Of a DNA stretch of 32,236 bases, positions 16,891 through 24,092 are shown piece after piece. The notes under the pieces are model-generated. The model did no database searches. It had not been told where the DNA came from and was given only the letters and a program-made list of their open reading frames with translations. Origin of the DNA: a virus; IMG/VR virus record IMGVR_UViG_3300030419_006051, positions 1-32,236 of that record, one strand, 5' to 3'. A program made the position numbers and the translations under genes. The first letter of the stretch is position 1. Each line of letters starts with the position of its first letter.

Positions 16891-19722
16891 ATGTCGGTAA
16901 AAAATTACAGATTTGTATCACCTGGAGTTTTCGTTAACGAGATCGATAACTCCCAACTTCCAGCTTCACCGGCAGGCATTGGCCCTGTCATTTTTGGTCG
17001 AGCGCAAAAAGGGCCCGCACTACGGCCCGTTTCAGTTAACTCCTTTGAAGAGTTTGTAAACGTCTTCGGCGCCCCGGCCCCTGGCAATGGTGTTGATGAT
17101 GTATGGCGCGAAGGGAATAACATCACGGCTCCCACATACGGTGCCTATGCAGCACAGGCCTACCTAAGAAACAGTTCTCCACTGACATTCGTACGCCTTT
17201 TGGGTGCTGACGACGATAGTGCCACCACTGCTGGCGTCGCAGGCTGGGAGAGCACAAATGCCTACGGCCTCGTCGTTTTCGAGACCGGCTCCGGCGCTAT
17301 GTGTGAACTTACGGGAGCCCTCGCTGCTGTCTTCTATTCCACAGATGCCACCACCACATTTGAACTTAGTGGCGCTATTGCCACGGTTACTGGTTCGATG
17401 GCTGGTGGAGGCCAGAACGCGGTCGTCCTCGGCGGTCCAGTCACAGGTTCGGGCCCCGTTGTGGCCAACGTTGGCGGTAAGTTTGAATATAAGCTTCTCA
17501 TCAAGAACTACAAGGGCACAAGTACCCTTACTAGTACCTTTAACTTTAGTGAGAACGATTCAAAGTACATTCGAAAGGTATTTAACACCAACCCCCAGCA
17601 GACCAATAGCGGAATCACTAATGGTCCCGTTAACTACTGGCTTGGCGAGACGTTCGACCGACACCTAGCCGCACAGATCGACAACACTCAGACTAATACG
17701 TTTGCAGCCATTGTGCCCATTAGGACAACTGGTAGTGCCAAAGGCTATGATTTCCGCACCTCCTTGCAGAGCGCTCAGACACCGCAGGTTATTAGTTGTC
17801 GCTTAAGCCCTTCAGCGACTCCGCAGGATCTGTTTAAGTTTGTAGCACTTGACCAGCCCGGCGATTGGTCCAACAAGAATATTAAGGTTGCCATCCAGGA
17901 TATTAAGGTTTCTACCAACGATAGTAGTGAGTATGGCAGCTTTTCAGTTGTGGTCCGCCACTTGAGTGATAGCGATAATGTCGTGCGAGTACTCGAACAG
18001 TTTAACAATTGCGATCTTAATCCAGATTCGCTTAATTATGTCGGGCGCCTCGTTGGCGATAAGCGTAAAGTTTGGAACGCCGATGAGAAGCGTTATCGTG
18101 TAGAGGGAGACTACGACAACCGCTCAGACTTTATTCGTATTGAAGTGAACGCTGATGTTGCAGCCGGTATTACTGACCCTCAGTTGCTCCCCTTCGGATT
18201 CCGTGGAATCGTTAAGTACAACGACGAAGATCTTCTTCAATCGGGATCCGAGGCCGGCCAGTGGCTTTCTGGCTCCTCCGTTACGGGCTTACCAGTCCAA
18301 GGCTCTGGTTTAATCTCTTCGGGGTCTTTGTTTGCTGTTTCTGGCGCCGCTGCACTCGATTTGAACTACAATGCCAGCGTCATCTACCCGGCCCCTGAGT
18401 TCCGAATCAACGCCTCTGACGGTAACCTGAACAATCCTAAGGACGCTTACTTTGGTTTACAAACTGCAAAGACCGCCGGAAGCACAGTATTCGATCGATC
18501 CACGATCGATCTCCTGCGTCCTCGCGGCGGTATTGTTGGAAGCTTCGCAGCTGCGAGTGCCAACAACACTGAGACATCGATGGTCTTTACGCTCGATGAC
18601 GTGTCGGGCTCCACCGGCGTGTGGACTAGTGGTTCACACAGTTCCACATCTCTAACCTATGCTAATGGGCCCGTGAGTGGTGTTCTGAATGCCGGCTTCG
18701 ATCGGTTCACCGTGCCTATGTACGGTGGTTTCGACGGCCTCGATGTCCAGGAAATGGATCCGTTCGCCAACAGAACAATGGATTCAACCTCCACTATGAC
18801 AAACAGCTACGAGTTCTTCTCGATTCGCCGCGCAATCGACAGCGTGGCAGATCCTGAGGTAGTGGAGATGAATCTTGCTTCGGTCCCAGGCCTTACTCAG
18901 GAGAGCCTGACGACCCACCTGATTCGCACTTGCGAAGATCGTGGGGATGCTCTGGCAGTCGTGGATCTTCCCAACGGCTACAGTCCTCGCGAAGAAGGCC
19001 TTGAAGCAGCACGGAATAACACCGCTAGCGAGATTCGATCGGCGATCGCAAACTTGCGTGACCGCAGCCTCAACACTTCCTATGGTTGTACTTACTACCC
19101 ATGGGTACGTTGCCGCGACAACATTAACGGAGCCCTTGTGTGGATGCCCCCCTCTGTTGCCGCAATCGGCACCTTCTCTAGTTCGCAGCGTAGAACGCAG
19201 CTATGGTTTGCCCCTGCTGGCTTCAACCGAGGCGGATTGACCGAAGGTTCCGCCGGCCTGCCGGTCCTCGACGTGGCCCACCAGCTACGCCGTCAAGACA
19301 GGGATGACCTCTACAGTGCTAACATCAACCCGATTGCGAAGTTCCCCGCAGAGGGTATTGTGATCTTCGGTCAGAAGACGTTGCAAACTACTCCTTCCGC
19401 TTTGGATCGGATCAATGTGCGACGCCTGATGATCTTCGTAAAGAAGCGCGTTTCTCAGATGGCCGCAACCATCCTGTTTGATCCGAACGCCAAGACAACT
19501 TGGGCACGCTTCACCTCTCAGGTGAATCCCTTCTTGGCCAATATCAAGACCAACTTCGGTCTGTCGGACTACAAGGTTGTTCTGGACGAGACAACCACAA
19601 CCCCTGAGCTGATTGATAGAAACATCCTTTATGCTCAGATTTTCTTGAAGCCGACCCGTGCCATCGAGTACATTGCAATCGACTTCAATATCACGAGAAC
19701 GGGGGCATCATTTGACGACTAG
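16891..19722 (+). CDS. gp18: Contractile tail sheath protein, gp18 family, enlarged
   Basis: A 943-residue sheath protein. Residues 1-110 contain the classic start: VSPGVFVNEIDNS, GPVIFGRAQKGP, SFEEFVNVFGAP, YAAQAYLRNSSPLTFVRLLG. Residues about 640-943 form the conserved core: RRAIDSVADPEVVEMNLAS, YYPWVRCRDNINGALVWMPP, PAGFNRGGL, ANINPIAKFPAEGIVIFGQ, NVRRLMIFVKKRV, and the terminal strand region. T4 gp18 is 659 residues, so the middle (about 110-640) carries nearly 300 extra residues rich in Gly, Ser, Ala and Thr, probably surface domains. Ribosome site TAGGAGA is good. It forms the contracting outer tail cylinder around the gp19-type tube encoded next. Confidence 0.93.
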   Translation: MSVKNYRFVSPGVFVNEIDNSQLPASPAGIGPVIFGRAQKGPALRPVSVNSFEEFVNVFGAPAPGNGVDDVWREGNNITAPTYGAYAAQAYLRNSSPLTFVRLLGADDDSATTAGVAGWESTNAYGLVVFETGSGAMCELTGALAAVFYSTDATTTFELSGAIATVTGSMAGGGQNAVVLGGPVTGSGPVVANVGGKFEYKLLIKNYKGTSTLTSTFNFSENDSKYIRKVFNTNPQQTNSGITNGPVNYWLGETFDRHLAAQIDNTQTNTFAAIVPIRTTGSAKGYDFRTSLQSAQTPQVISCRLSPSATPQDLFKFVALDQPGDWSNKNIKVAIQDIKVSTNDSSEYGSFSVVVRHLSDSDNVVRVLEQFNNCDLNPDSLNYVGRLVGDKRKVWNADEKRYRVEGDYDNRSDFIRIEVNADVAAGITDPQLLPFGFRGIVKYNDEDLLQSGSEAGQWLSGSSVTGLPVQGSGLISSGSLFAVSGAAALDLNYNASVIYPAPEFRINASDGNLNNPKDAYFGLQTAKTAGSTVFDRSTIDLLRPRGGIVGSFAAASANNTETSMVFTLDDVSGSTGVWTSGSHSSTSLTYANGPVSGVLNAGFDRFTVPMYGGFDGLDVQEMDPFANRTMDSTSTMTNSYEFFSIRRAIDSVADPEVVEMNLASVPGLTQESLTTHLIRTCEDRGDALAVVDLPNGYSPREEGLEAARNNTASEIRSAIANLRDRSLNTSYGCTYYPWVRCRDNINGALVWMPPSVAAIGTFSSSQRRTQLWFAPAGFNRGGLTEGSAGLPVLDVAHQLRRQDRDDLYSANINPIAKFPAEGIVIFGQKTLQTTPSALDRINVRRLMIFVKKRVSQMAATILFDPNAKTTWARFTSQVNPFLANIKTNFGLSDYKVVLDETTTTPELIDRNILYAQIFLKPTRAIEYIAIDFNITRTGASFDD

Positions 19723-19796: not shown

Positions 19797-20384
19797 ATGG
19801 CATTTTGGACAAGCGCACTATCAGAACCGAAAAGACAACATAGATTTTTGCTGAGACTACCCAGTCTTACGACAGGTGGCCCTCAGCCAGAGTTTGCCTA
19901 CACGGAATACTTGGCTCGATCTGTAACCAAGCCGTCTTTCACTGTCTCCGAAACACCTCACAAGTTCTTGGGTAACACCTATTACTACCCGGGAATTGTT
20001 GAGTGGAATACTATCACGGCTACGATTGTTAACTCCGTGGCTCCTGATGGTAATGCCCTTTTGTATGCTGCTCTTGAGCAGATGGGATACTTGAGGCCCG
20101 ATGTTCAGGAGTTGATTACTCGCGGCGAGCAGGCTCCCTCGACTGTTAATAAAGATGCAGCGCTTAATGCTTTGGGTCAGGTCGAGATTGAGGAACTTAC
20201 TGGAGAAGGTACAACAGCAGGTATTTGGATTCTCAACAACGCATTCATTACGTCCGCTACTTTTGGTGATCTTAACTATGATACCGAAGATATCCTTAAC
20301 ATTGAGCTTACAATGCGGTATGATTGGGCTACGTATGAGATTGGCGCAGGTGCCAGAGCAGTCGCATCGGCTGCGGGGACCTAG
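19797..20384 (+). CDS. gp19: Tail tube protein, gp19 family
   Basis: A 195-residue protein in the standard position after the sheath. It begins MAFWTSALSEPKRQHRFLLR, then has a SVTKPSFTVSETPHKFLGNT segment, YYPGIVEWNTITATIVNSV, and a C-terminal GDLNYDTEDILNIELTMRYD. This is the usual pattern of gp19-type tubes: the KP-x-F-x-V segment, a W-x-x-I/V-T strand, then a final Y-D-W strand (T4 gp19 is 163 residues). Ribosome site CAGGAGA. It forms the inner tube that channels DNA. Confidence 0.9.
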   Translation: MAFWTSALSEPKRQHRFLLRLPSLTTGGPQPEFAYTEYLARSVTKPSFTVSETPHKFLGNTYYYPGIVEWNTITATIVNSVAPDGNALLYAALEQMGYLRPDVQELITRGEQAPSTVNKDAALNALGQVEIEELTGEGTTAGIWILNNAFITSATFGDLNYDTEDILNIELTMRYDWATYEIGAGARAVASAAGT

Positions 20385-20406: not shown

Positions 20407-21261
20407 GTGAGTAGAAGAAAGAACTCGTCCAGGACTTCTTCCCCGGACATTGAAACGCCTCCCTCCATGGAGGTGCCCCCACTCGCGAATAATAATGTCT
20501 TCTCCTTCGCAACCCCCACAGAATTTGTGGAGTTGCCGAGTAGAGGTGCATTTTATTCCGCGGATCATCCACTCCACGACACAGAAGTTGTAGAGATTAA
20601 ACACATGACCGCTAAGGAGGAAGATATCCTTACCTCCGAGGCACTCCTTAAAAATGGCCTAGCCCTAAACCGATTGCTAAGGTCCGTTCTTGTGAATAAG
20701 ACTATTGATCCAGAATCTTTGTTGATTGGAGACAAGAACGCTGTATTGATGGCTGTACGACAGACAGGTTTTGGAGACACATATACTACATCGGTTAATT
20801 GTCCTGCATGTGGGGCATTGGTTGAGAGAGATTTTTCGTTGCAAGATAAGGAAATTAAAGAGTCTGTTCTCCCTGATGATGTGAAGTTGCTAGAAAATGG
20901 TAATTTTATGTTTGAAGAAGAACAGTATGGATTGCAAGTAGAAATTAGGCTGCTCCGAGGCAAAGACGAGACAAGAATAACGAAGACCCTGGAAAGGCTG
21001 AAAAAGCTTAAGAAAGAAACAGGAAATGTGACAACGATGCTGCAGAACATTATCGTGAGTGTTAATGATTTACGGGAACCTACAGCAATCCGACAGGTAG
21101 TGGACGCCATGCCTGTTACGTTGTCTAGAAAGATTAGGAATATCTACGAAGAGGTAATGCCAAACATTAGCATGTACGCTGATTTTGATTGTGACTCTTG
21201 CTCCCACGTAGATCGGTTAGAGGTGCCGATTAACTTAAACTTTTTTTGGCCTGAACTCTGA
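20407..21261 (+). CDS. Tail/baseplate-hub assembly chaperone, gp26-like
   Basis: A 284-residue protein starting at GTG 20407 with an AAGAAGG ribosome site. After a disordered N-terminus come FVELPSRGAFY, IKHMTAKEEDILTSEALLKN and LALNRLLRSVL, a pattern I know from gp26-type baseplate hub proteins of cyanophage-like T4 relatives. It has a CPAC pair (C132, C135) and a CDSC pair (C262, C265), a likely zinc ribbon. Its position between tube and tape measure is that of tail assembly chaperones, which in many phages are made in short and frameshifted long forms. The frame ends just after a seven-T run, and an open frame continues beyond it (see next entries). Confidence 0.75.
   Translation: MSRRKNSSRTSSPDIETPPSMEVPPLANNNVFSFATPTEFVELPSRGAFYSADHPLHDTEVVEIKHMTAKEEDILTSEALLKNGLALNRLLRSVLVNKTIDPESLLIGDKNAVLMAVRQTGFGDTYTTSVNCPACGALVERDFSLQDKEIKESVLPDDVKLLENGNFMFEEEQYGLQVEIRLLRGKDETRITKTLERLKKLKKETGNVTTMLQNIIVSVNDLREPTAIRQVVDAMPVTLSRKIRNIYEEVMPNISMYADFDCDSCSHVDRLEVPINLNFFWPEL
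21241..21247 (+). other. Candidate slippery site: seven-T run
   Basis: Seven consecutive T residues (zero-frame AAC TTT TTT TGG) lie 12 nt before the chaperone stop TGA 21259-21261. A +1 or -2 shift here enters the downstream open frame. A CTC TGA context at the stop itself is an alternative +1 site. Confidence 0.5.
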
Positions 21262-21436
21262 GTATCAACAAGGCCTTTACGAAGAATTCTTCATTCTAAA
21301 GCAACACGGTAATTGGTCTTTCGCCGAAGCCTATAATCTTCCAACCGGATTGAGAAGATGGTTCTTATCCCGGTTGGTTCAACACTTTAAAGAAAAGCGA
21401 GAGGCAGAAGAGAAACAACAAGAAGGCGCCTCTTAG
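21248..21436 (+). CDS. Frameshift extension of the assembly chaperone (GT-like)
   Basis: The frame one base forward of the chaperone is open from 21239 to TAG 21434-21436. It encodes about 62 residues from GLNSEYQQGLYEEFFILKQH through GNWSFAEAYNLPTGLRRWFL to a charged tail ending QQEGAS. It contains no ATG or GTG, only two late TTG codons, so independent initiation is unlikely. The composition looks like real protein: an HG-x-(F/W)-SF-x-EAYNLP motif and a helical Lys/Glu tail. Read with the upstream gene it would give a product of about 342-343 residues. This matches the G/GT pattern of tail assembly chaperones next to a tape-measure gene. A gene broken by an indel or sequencing error is the alternative. 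Confidence 0.65.
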   Translation, partial: GLNSEYQQGLYEEFFILKQHGNWSFAEAYNLPTGLRRWFLSRLVQHFKEKREAEEKQQEGAS

Positions 21437-21450
21437 GGGCGTCTTTTTTT
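21423..21450 (+). terminator. Rho-independent terminator overlapping the extension's stop
   Basis: An 8-bp stem (21423-21430 with 21438-21445, one G-T wobble) has a 7-nt loop that contains the TAG stop, followed by a T run to 21450. It is moderately strong. Confidence 0.75.
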
Positions 21451-21455
21451 ATGCC

Positions 21456-21465
21456 AAACTATTTA
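21456..21465 (+). promoter_or_regulatory. Late-promoter-like motif AAACTATTTA
   Basis: The motif begins 6 nt after the terminator T-tract and ends 18 nt before ATG 21484. It lies inside a longer open frame from ATG 21451, which argues for the downstream start of the next gene. Confidence 0.45.
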
Positions 21466-21483
21466 TCAAAGGAGCAGACTATC

Positions 21484-21801
21484 ATGAAGCGTGAAAAAAT
21501 TGTTATAGATCTCACCAACAAGGACCTCAACGAGGGGCTCTACACTCAATTTGCGAACAACATGCGGAGCTTGCTGTTGGATCTATATTTTGCAGGTTTT
21601 GATGCACCTCTTTCACTAAAGGGCACGCAAGAACAGATAGACGCATTTTTCCGCGCGCTAAAAAGAGAAAAGCGTTACATGGACAGCTACATCAAGCATG
21701 GCCTTAACGACAATCGTACTATCTCCGATCGACATCAGCTCATGAATTCAGTTCAAAGCTTCGAGCGTGAAACGGGCCTAAGGTGGCCATTTAAAAATTA
21801 G
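21484..21801 (+). CDS. Conserved-looking small protein before the tape measure
   Basis: A 105-residue protein. I prefer ATG 21484 over ATG 21451 because AAGGAG lies properly before it and because the upstream ATG sits on the terminator and promoter motif. It is helical and basic, starting MKREKIVIDLTNKDLNEGLY and ending SFERETGLRWPFKN. The terminal (F/L)E-x-ETGL-(K/R)WPF pattern is familiar from small uncharacterised proteins in cyanophage-type genomes. Its place between the chaperone and tape measure suggests a tail assembly role. No enzymatic motif was seen. Confidence 0.7.
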   Translation: MKREKIVIDLTNKDLNEGLYTQFANNMRSLLLDLYFAGFDAPLSLKGTQEQIDAFFRALKREKRYMDSYIKHGLNDNRTISDRHQLMNSVQSFERETGLRWPFKN

Positions 21802-21815
21802 CGTGGTGAGGCGTA

Positions 21816-24092
21816 ATGGCTGAGTTAACAGACGAAACAGTTCAAAAACTGATTGCGAAACTCTCAGAGGGTGAAAGAGGTCAGGGCCCTGGTCGCCGCG
21901 GCCCCTCGACTCCTGAGGAGGTCGAAAAACTCCGGGCTGCAGAATTAAAGTTCGCTGAGTCTCTCTCCGAGAGAATCGAGATCAATCGCGAAGCGGACGA
22001 AACGCTAATTGAATTATATAAAAGACAGAGGCTCAGCTCGGAGGCTAGCAAAGCAGATGTCGAAGATTTAACCAAAAAAATCAAAGATCTTGAAGCCGGG
22101 CTGAAAGACCTCGGTGGCACAGCGCAAAAGGTCAATAAGTTTTTTAGCGCTTCCGAACTTGCCTTTCAGGAGACAGCAGGCTCGGTGTTGGAGCTGGGAA
22201 GCAATTTTAGAAAGGTTGGTGCAACTATTTATGGAGTTTTAGGTCCATTCACTTCTCTTGTTAAAGCATTCAAGAAGGGGAATGTCGTATCAACAGTTAC
22301 TATGGGCGCCTTTAAGACTCTCTTGAACGTTGGCCTCAAGCTTCTTAGCAACACCATAGAATTAGCATTTGCTGTTGATAAGGCGGCAGCTTCCTTTCGG
22401 AAAGTAACAGGCGCCGGTTATGGCTACGAGCGCGTCATTCAGAGAGTTGCTACCTCGTACTTAGCATATGGCATAAATGCCGAAGATGCCGGCGCAGCCA
22501 CAACTGCCCTATTTGGATCCTTCAGGGAGTTTACTGAGCTTTCCGACTCACAGCAAGCAAATATTGCCACAACCGCGGCCATTCTTGGTAAGTTCGGCGT
22601 GAGCGGTCAGCAAGTTGGCGAGATATTAAACACTGCAACCAAATCTTTGGGGATGAACGTTACTGAGTCAGAACACCTGTTGCGTGAGTTTGAAGCCATC
22701 GCCAAGTCAGTTGGGAAGCCCATTTCTGAGATAGCAGGAGACTTCGCGTCTGCCGTTCCCAAGATTGCTTTCTACGGCGCGGATGCGATAAGCGTATTTA
22801 AGGAATTAGAAGCGCAATCTAAGAGCACTGGTCTCTCTGTTAGTCAACTTTTGGGTGTTTTCGGCCAGCAGCTCGATACTTTCGAAGGCGCCGGCCGCGC
22901 TGTTGGCAAACTTAATGCGTTATTAGGTGGTCCGTATCTAAACTCCATCGACATGCTTAATGCATCTGAGGCCGAACGTTTAGAAATGCTTCAAGATGCC
23001 ATGAAGGCATCTGGAACGCTGTTCTCAGACCTTAACAAGTTTGAGCAAAAAGCTTTTGCTTCTGCTCTCGGAACAGATGTAGATACTTTGCGCAAAGCAA
23101 TGACAGAATTGGATCCCTATCAGGAATTGCAGGTCCAGCGCCAAGAGATGTTGGCCCGCAAAGCAGGACAGGCTCGCGATATTCTACAAAAGCTGCGGGA
23201 TGCATTTAATAGCTTTATCATCAGCGCCAAACCTTGGATTGATACCATAACTAAACTTGTTGATAAGTTTGCCGACTGGGCCCATCGCAACAATGATCTA
23301 GAAAAAGTCTTTAAAACAAAGCTGCTACCTAGAATTCAGGCTTTAGCTAAACACATGAAACCGTTGATTAGTACTGTAAAGTTTGTGGTTAAGAACTGGA
23401 AAGAGTTACTATTTGTATTCGGCGCCTGGAAAGCTCTAACTGCCGGCGCATGGGCCGTAGGAATAATCCGTGATCTCGTTGGGGTTGCAAGGGCAGCCAA
23501 CGTTGCCGCGGCATCCACAGCACGTGCCGCCAGCGCCGCTCGAATGATGAGATTTGCTGGCTTGGGCTTAGGGCTTGGTATGGCAACTGGCGCTGGCGTA
23601 AACATGTTGCGAAACCAGGGTAAGGGCGGCGCCGCTATTGGCGCGGGCATCTTGGGCGGCGCGGCATCCGGCGCTGCAATGGGCGCCTTCTTCGGTCTAC
23701 CCGGCGCCGCCATCGGTGGCGCTATCGGCGCAATCGGCGGCGGCCTTTATGCCAGCCGCGACTATAATGATATGCTCCCAGACGGTAGTACATTAGATGT
23801 CGCAGACAAGCCTTTCTGGGCCCAGGATGGCTCCTTTATGGGATTTGGAACATCCGGTGGGCCACTAGATCAGGCTTCCCGGGGGGAAGGGAATGTATTC
23901 ATGCCTAGAGCGCAAAGTACACAAGGATCCCCTGGCGGGATCACCATTGAGCAGCTAGTAGAAGCCTTGGCCGCAGCGCCACTGCAAGCAAGGGTAATGG
24001 TACAGGGTGGCAACGGGCTTAAGGAAGGGATGCTTGATTTTCAGAACGCCCCTGATAGCCCAATGAATCCATTTAATCAAGGGTCCTTTTAG
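21816..24092 (+). CDS. Tail tape-measure protein
   Basis: A 758-residue, mostly helical protein. Residues about 30-105 are charged and coiled-coil-like. The centre is Ala/Ser-rich helix with repeated small-hydrophobic patterns. Residues about 530-650 contain hydrophobic and Gly/Ala-rich segments (AAIGAGILGGAASGAAMGAF, GAAIGGAIGAIGGG), typical membrane-interacting parts of tape measures. The C-terminus is polar, ending NPFNQGSF. Its position after the tube and chaperone and before the baseplate genes fits. At roughly 0.15 nm per residue it would set a tail of about 110 nm, slightly more than T4. Start ATG 21816 is 15 nt after the preceding stop. Confidence 0.8.
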   Translation: MAELTDETVQKLIAKLSEGERGQGPGRRGPSTPEEVEKLRAAELKFAESLSERIEINREADETLIELYKRQRLSSEASKADVEDLTKKIKDLEAGLKDLGGTAQKVNKFFSASELAFQETAGSVLELGSNFRKVGATIYGVLGPFTSLVKAFKKGNVVSTVTMGAFKTLLNVGLKLLSNTIELAFAVDKAAASFRKVTGAGYGYERVIQRVATSYLAYGINAEDAGAATTALFGSFREFTELSDSQQANIATTAAILGKFGVSGQQVGEILNTATKSLGMNVTESEHLLREFEAIAKSVGKPISEIAGDFASAVPKIAFYGADAISVFKELEAQSKSTGLSVSQLLGVFGQQLDTFEGAGRAVGKLNALLGGPYLNSIDMLNASEAERLEMLQDAMKASGTLFSDLNKFEQKAFASALGTDVDTLRKAMTELDPYQELQVQRQEMLARKAGQARDILQKLRDAFNSFIISAKPWIDTITKLVDKFADWAHRNNDLEKVFKTKLLPRIQALAKHMKPLISTVKFVVKNWKELLFVFGAWKALTAGAWAVGIIRDLVGVARAANVAAASTARAASAARMMRFAGLGLGLGMATGAGVNMLRNQGKGGAAIGAGILGGAASGAAMGAFFGLPGAAIGGAIGAIGGGLYASRDYNDMLPDGSTLDVADKPFWAQDGSFMGFGTSGGPLDQASRGEGNVFMPRAQSTQGSPGGITIEQLVEALAAAPLQARVMVQGGNGLKEGMLDFQNAPDSPMNPFNQGSF

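Follow-up and report, generated by a model that had tools for sequence, protein, structure and literature searches.

Does the gp26-like gene of a T4-type tail module, which ends shortly after a run of seven T, also encode a longer protein by programmed frameshifting, as the tail assembly chaperone genes of the lambda G/GT type do? The question is raised by a locus in IMG/VR virus record IMGVR_UViG_3300030419_006051, of which positions 1 to 32,236 (32,236 nucleotides) were analyzed; this whole stretch is referred to as the window. It carries a T4-type tail module composed of sheath (16891-19722), tube, gp26-like protein, a small gene, tape measure and hub genes. The gp26-like gene sits between the gene for the tail tube protein, just upstream (19797-20384, plus strand; phrog_4542, E 3e-19), and that for the tape measure protein, downstream (21816-24092, plus strand; phrog_167, E 1e-13), with one small gene intervening before the tape measure. 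From the sequence comparisons described below, this locus is very probably a programmed +1 ribosomal frameshift gene of the G/GT type, and its resemblance to G/GT in anatomy is well supported.

The gene read in the 0 frame (20407-21261, plus strand) has a GTG start and encodes a gp26-type protein of 284 aa, which corresponds to the short, G-like form. This protein matches PF12322 (E 6e-14, 52.7 bits versus a curated cut-off of 24.5) and phrog_150 (E 3e-15); NCBIfam yielded nothing useful. The 3' end of the gene is AAC TTT TTT TGG CCT GAA CTC TGA, in which the seven-T run occupies 21241-21247 and the TGA stop 21259-21261; an end at 21261 shortly after seven T had been claimed in the preliminary description of this DNA. 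That description also assigned the protein a zinc ribbon, which is present in the window's own protein (CPAC...CDSC) but is not a property of the family, since the cysteines are not conserved in the family consensus. Using AlphaFold, the short form (20407-21258) and the extension discussed below were folded as separate domains. The short-form model (pLDDT 90.9) has T4-type baseplate hub proteins as structural neighbors, and the HK97 gp13 tail assembly chaperone (2ob9) appears at PDB rank 3 (probability 0.47, E 0.41, TMt 0.45). This weak fold match is a lead, not proof, that gp26-type proteins and the tail chaperones of siphophages are distant homologues. When the short form was compared by hhalign with lambda G and HK97 gp13 as single sequences, the probability was <1% for both, and scans to broaden these two families gave only near-identical copies.

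Beyond the T run, the +1 frame is open from 21239 to 21433 and closes at a TAG stop (21434-21436). It contains no ATG or GTG, in line with the earlier description and coordinates, and its first possible start is a TTG located 34 codons into the extension. The T-like extension (21248-21436 with its stop, plus strand) comprises 62 codons (21248-21433), lies one base out of frame and is entered at TTT_TGG, three codons before the gp26-like stop. Read from the GGC behind the T run, it encodes GLNSEYQQGLYEEFFILKQHGNWSFAEAYNLPTGLRRWFLSRLVQHFKEKREAEEKQQEGAS. Translation with a one-base step at TGGC yields a predicted +1 fusion (20407-21436, plus strand) of 342 aa, within the 342-343 residues anticipated beforehand, and 64 such +1 fusions align; no PDB relatives of the fusion were found by sequence search. 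In close pairs of relatives, 66% of the nucleotide differences in the extension (4386/6651) fall at third positions of the +1 frame, and this frame is intact in all complete relatives. The extension is thus more than a chance open frame, and the convincing protein content first attributed to it is borne out. Among isolates, immuto, GXN1 and RM378 have the +1-frame extension (L083 5695-5943, L093 4700-5100 and L091 5460-5688, respectively), which carries either no annotation or that of an unrelated small ORF.

The stop codon of the extension is overlapped by a terminator-like hairpin (21423-21450, plus strand), which was read from the sequence and is absent from the terminator scanner output. 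It is made up of AGGCGCCTC TTA GGGGCGTC followed by a T run, and terminator-like hairpins are present at the equivalent place in only 27 of 125 relatives. The listed start of the ORF after the hairpin (21451-21801), ATG 21451, falls where the terminator-like T run ends; the likelier start is ATG 21484, which follows AAGGAG. No family was matched by the ~105-aa protein of this ORF. Small ORFs between the extension and the tape measure gene are also present in HTVC008M, Melnitz-2, Rhizobium I1_9 and Cr30.

Searched alone against phrog_634 (the gp51 family), the extension gives a weak match (E 0.15). At a loose threshold (E up to 1), phrog_634 also matches the Bacillus subtilis and Deinobacterium chartae control genomes. 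An HMM was built from the C-terminal regions of cyanophage, pelagiphage, Cr30 and T4 gp51, and the extension is its sole significant match (E 1.7e-4) when 537 six-frame fragments of the window are searched. In the opposite direction, the gp51 ORFs of nt-1, P-SSM2, Melnitz-2, HTVC008M and S-PM2 took the first five places among 1048 fragments, the first alone passing the inclusion threshold, and profile-profile comparison of the extension with the gp51 domain (hhalign) gave P 1.2e-5 at a probability of 81%. The extension domain of one relative was compared with 17 whole phage records and found matches in six, always directly behind gp26. The AlphaFold model of the extension is a three-helix domain (pLDDT 92.6); ranked by E-value, its best viral structure match is the Gp51 protein from Prochlorococcus phage P-HM1 (probability 0.98, TMt 0.72), which at E 0.23 is not significant alone. 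Judged by these comparisons, the extension is a homologue of the T4 gp51 C-terminal domain.

Conservation of the site was assessed in relatives. A scan of IMG/VR with the gp26-like protein returned 80 relatives at 40-77% identity. Nearly all of these have seven T before the stop, with TTCTTTT in a few, and the extension occupies the same +1 frame in every one that has enough downstream sequence. The set was widened with three more seeds, Flavobacterium immuto, Rhodothermus RM378 and Microcystis Mel-JY01; scans for relatives of LR756508 gave none and for RM378 only itself. In the pooled survey, the extension is in the +1 frame in all scorable loci of the clade (about 240), eleven loci with a longer -1 frame by chance having been assigned +1 through profile scoring. 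The T run, the stop position and the frame offset, which the preliminary description had singled out for comparison, are all conserved over these loci, and no relative with a single continuous frame was found in this clade.

The slip site itself is TTT TTT TGG in the window (21241-21249, plus strand). Across the clade, the sequences are TTT TTT TGG CCT (181 loci), TTT CTT TGG CCT (35), TTC TTT TGG CCT (7), TTT CTA TGG CCT (4), CTT TTT TGG CCT (3) and TTT TTT TGG plus another codon (6), together with the rarer TTT TTT TAC (2), TTT CTT TAC, TTT CTA TTC and TTC TTT CGT. All variants let the P-site tRNA re-pair one base downstream (UUU to UUU, UUU to UUC or CUU to UUU), and the +1-slippery codons of the clade are UUU_U, CUU_U or UUU_C. 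The A-site codon is the sense codon UGG in the window and sometimes UAC, CGU or CUA elsewhere. Codon choice was tested on 130 scored clusters (90% identity). A P-site Phe is encoded by TTT in 111/111 clusters versus a background of 76% (p 9e-14) and a P-site Leu by CTT in 17/19 versus 21% (p 4e-10), although these p values overstate the strength of the effect because the clusters share ancestry. Neither RNA structure downstream of the +1 site nor any other stimulator was found; reading of 21220-21249 in the window gave no prfB-type Shine-Dalgarno element 3 bases upstream, and there were no Rfam matches and no tRNA genes.

From this anatomy we infer the following course of translation. Most ribosomes would stop at 21261 and release the gp26-like short form. 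In a fraction of them, with tRNA-Phe on UUU in the P site (21244-21246) and UGG in the A site, the tRNA would slip one base forward and re-pair at 21245-21247, making GGC (21248-21250) the next codon. The slipped ribosomes would then add the 62-residue gp51-type domain and produce the 342-residue long form. If lambda is a guide, the tape measure is probably bound by the short form in many copies, and the long form, in few copies, would recruit subunits of the tube or hub. In cyanophages and their relatives, this protein pair is likely made by -1 frameshifting, and in T4-like Straboviridae by two duplicated genes, with gp26 as the short and gp51 as the long protein.

A gp26 gene followed by a -1-frame extension across T_TTT_TTY was observed in cyanophages, HTVC008M, Melnitz-2, Cr30, Rhizobium I1_9, Vibrio nt-1 and K571, and Aeromonas P19. 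KVP40-like and other T4-superfamily phages likewise pair gp26 with gp51 at a canonical -1 site, often with a stem-loop. T_TTT_TTY is present in 23/23 scored clusters, as is a preceding NNT codon. In the cyanophage set, a stem-loop begins a few bases downstream of the heptamer (mean z -2.2). A canonical -1 site is defined by an X_XXY_YYZ heptamer with a stem-loop 5-9 bases downstream, and this sister group agrees with that definition in its heptamer and in its stem close behind it. The structure is weak in P19, Rhizobium I1_9 and HTVC008M; in S-PM2, a 13-bp stem with a different sequence occupies almost the same position. Stem-loops lie just past the -1 heptamer at L102 2181-2256 (S-PM2) and L100 2184-2259 (P-SSM2), and since the annotated gp51 start ATG falls within the stem's reach and is overlapped by it, the stem could also affect initiation. 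Aeromonas phage Aeh1 has the same -1 arrangement (L530, record 118822-119723, minus strand), its gp51 domain being unannotated and in the -1 frame behind T_TTT_TTC, with no junction ATG. Aeromonas phage P19 (L356 3160-3380) likewise has an extension in the -1 frame after T_TTT_TTC that is left unannotated. Vibrio phage D510 (L357 3180-3439) has a -1-frame extension with a TAATG overlap and no heptamer, and may use start-stop coupling in place of frameshifting.

T4 has two PF12322 genes, gp26 and gp51 (residues 1-201, E 4e-52), of which only gp51 carries the extension; gp51 is thus a gp26-like domain plus the extension in one frame. One-to-one blastp of T4 gp26 and gp51 gives E 2e-6, and by sequence the two are paralogues. 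They lie on opposite strands, and T4 has no -1 slip site of this kind. Matches to gp51 were found in 1339 phage records and cover at least 80% of its length in 1334. No more than one PF12322 gene is recognized in phages whose extension is out of frame or separate; in Mel-JY01 and immuto, this gene was missed by the Pfam scan and recovered by tblastn. In a tree of 26 sequences, the +1 proteins form one clade (100/99); the T4-type gp26 and gp51 groups are sisters with moderate support (88/85) inside the other clade, whose remaining members are the cyanophages, HTVC008M, Melnitz-2, Cr30, Rhizobium I1_9, Vibrio nt-1 and K571, and Aeromonas P19.

A link from T4-type gp26 to lambda G/GT had been proposed at the outset, and the findings exceed that guess, since the extension is the gp51 domain and T4 gp51 joins a gp26-like domain to it. 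A simple history would begin with a frameshifted pair, its direction differing between two deep branches, followed by duplication with in-frame fusion in the T4 lineage. We consider it likely that T4-superfamily phages are no exception to the G/GT rule: gp26 and a frameshifted gp26-gp51 fusion would be ancestral, with +1 and -1 shifts in the deep branches at the same Phe-Phe hinge, and the T4 lineage would have swapped its -1 shift for a duplication and an in-frame gp51 fusion, making gp26 T4's 'G' and gp51 its 'GT'.

The same gene order might be produced if the T domain were translated as a protein of its own, through translational coupling to the short form or reinitiation behind it, with the slippery run being incidental. 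Such a reading accords with the ATG found 5 bases after the gp26 stop begins in 21/23 cyanophage clusters, where gp51 is annotated as its own gene, and with Vibrio D510, which has TAATG and no heptamer. However, a proper start for the second gene, which the preliminary description had named as contrary evidence, is not conserved: in the window there is no start codon before half of the extension domain is lost, 47 of the 130 clusters of the +1 clade have none at all, and Syn9 and Aeh1 have no ATG at the junction. In addition, the slip codons are under nucleotide-level constraint, and T4 fuses the same domain in frame to a gp26-like domain. On these grounds the stand-alone T gene was rejected as very unlikely. 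The frame change was also originally given as '+1 (equivalently -2)'; the two shifts do reach the same frame, and a seven-T run permits a -2 slip of one tRNA-Phe. Four site variants in relatives (TTC TTT TGG, TTT CTT TGG, TTT CTA TGG and TTC TTT CGT) are incompatible with re-pairing after a two-base backward slip, whereas all permit +1, so that the -2 shift was rejected as highly improbable and the offset is best read as +1 alone. We regard it as equally improbable that RNA polymerase slips on the T run and leaves an mRNA pool that holds both lengths. Long T runs can provoke transcript slippage and most sites have seven T, but TTTCTTTGG, TTCTTTTGG, TTTCTATGG and TTCTTTCGT contain just three or four consecutive T with the same gene organization, and the sister clade bears a -1 translational signature; transcript slippage was rejected because the organization is kept at sites without a long T run. 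Although a homopolymer run invites suspicion of a sequencing error or a decayed gene, the same arrangement recurs in about 240 contigs drawn from many different samples, as well as in the isolate genomes RM378, Mel-JY01, immuto and GXN1, and this scarcely credible explanation was likewise rejected.

If the +1 frameshift is real, both of its products could nevertheless serve baseplate hub assembly alone and not act as tape-measure chaperones. T4 gp26 and gp51 are listed as hub assembly chaperones, gp51 being essential and absent from virions (PMC3004832), and the hhalign comparison with the single lambda G sequence gave no homology. On the other hand, the gene lies between tube and tape measure, and the short form has the weak fold match to the HK97 tail assembly chaperone. 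Moreover, the hub and tape-measure roles may be one, because the T4 gp29 tape measure is itself a hub component. We therefore see the hub-only role as an unlikely but serious alternative to that of tape-measure chaperone; a role in tail length is proposed by analogy, because the T4 literature puts gp26/gp51 in baseplate hub assembly. That gp51 is essential yet absent from virions would suit a rarely needed long form, which is suggestive only; a "catalytic vs. stoichiometric" study, discussed with gp51, is included in the reference list of the same paper (PMC3004832).

Previous observations on gp51 can be read in the same terms. Sullivan et al. 2010 reported that gp51 of cyanophages and vibriophages is shorter by ~200 residues at its N-terminus and that Aeh1 is missing gp51 (PMC3037559). 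Under the frameshift model, the short cyanophage gp51 is explained because gp26 supplies the missing residues, and Aeh1 gp51 would have been called missing because the domain is in the -1 frame. According to a 2016 review (PMC5009743), G-T frameshifting is a conserved feature of long-tailed phages "except T4", and our results suggest that this exception is only apparent. In the open-access literature we found no paper tying gp26/gp51 to frameshifting; subscription papers could contain one. The comparison provides a testable identity for T4 gp26 and the essential T4 gp51, both of unclear function, and a natural series in which the same fusion would be reached by +1 slip, -1 slip or gene duplication, useful for the study of gain and loss of recoding. 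Many phage annotations in which gp51 is split or the extension is left unannotated could be corrected.

Among known systems, lambda G/GT (and HK97 gp13 with its -1 product) shares with this locus the position between tube and tape measure, a short protein with an extension in a rare form, a shift a few codons before the stop and a conserved slip site. It differs in direction, the shift being +1 in this clade and -1 usually, though not universally, in G/GT, and in the short form, which here belongs to PF12322 and shows no homology to either lambda G or HK97 gp13 that is detectable by sequence. As at prfB-type and UUU_CGU-type +1 sites, the P-site tRNA would re-pair one base forward, and CUU_U and UUU_C variants occur here; re-pairing from CUU to UUU is known from prfB. 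In a prfB-type site, the A site holds a stop codon and a Shine-Dalgarno element precedes it at a distance of 3 bases, whereas the A-site codon here is usually the sense codon UGG and no stimulator was found. UUU_CGU, which is contained in the Streptococcus phage GXN1 site, forms the core of a +1 site that mass spectrometry has located in an unrelated virus (PMC3498833). The tail chaperone of the haloarchaeal myovirus HSTV-2, for which +1 frameshifting was reported as very likely (PMC5009743), is by its published description a further case in a contractile-tailed virus. Cyanophage gp26/gp51 have the same two domains in overlapping frames with a Phe-Phe hinge at the shift, but use the -1 frame with a T_TTT_TTY heptamer and a downstream stem-loop, and their gp51 usually has an ATG and hence is annotated as a separate gene. 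In T4, gp26 corresponds to the short form and gp51 to the whole fusion by their homologous domains, although the two are encoded there by paralogous genes on opposite strands, without a frameshift.
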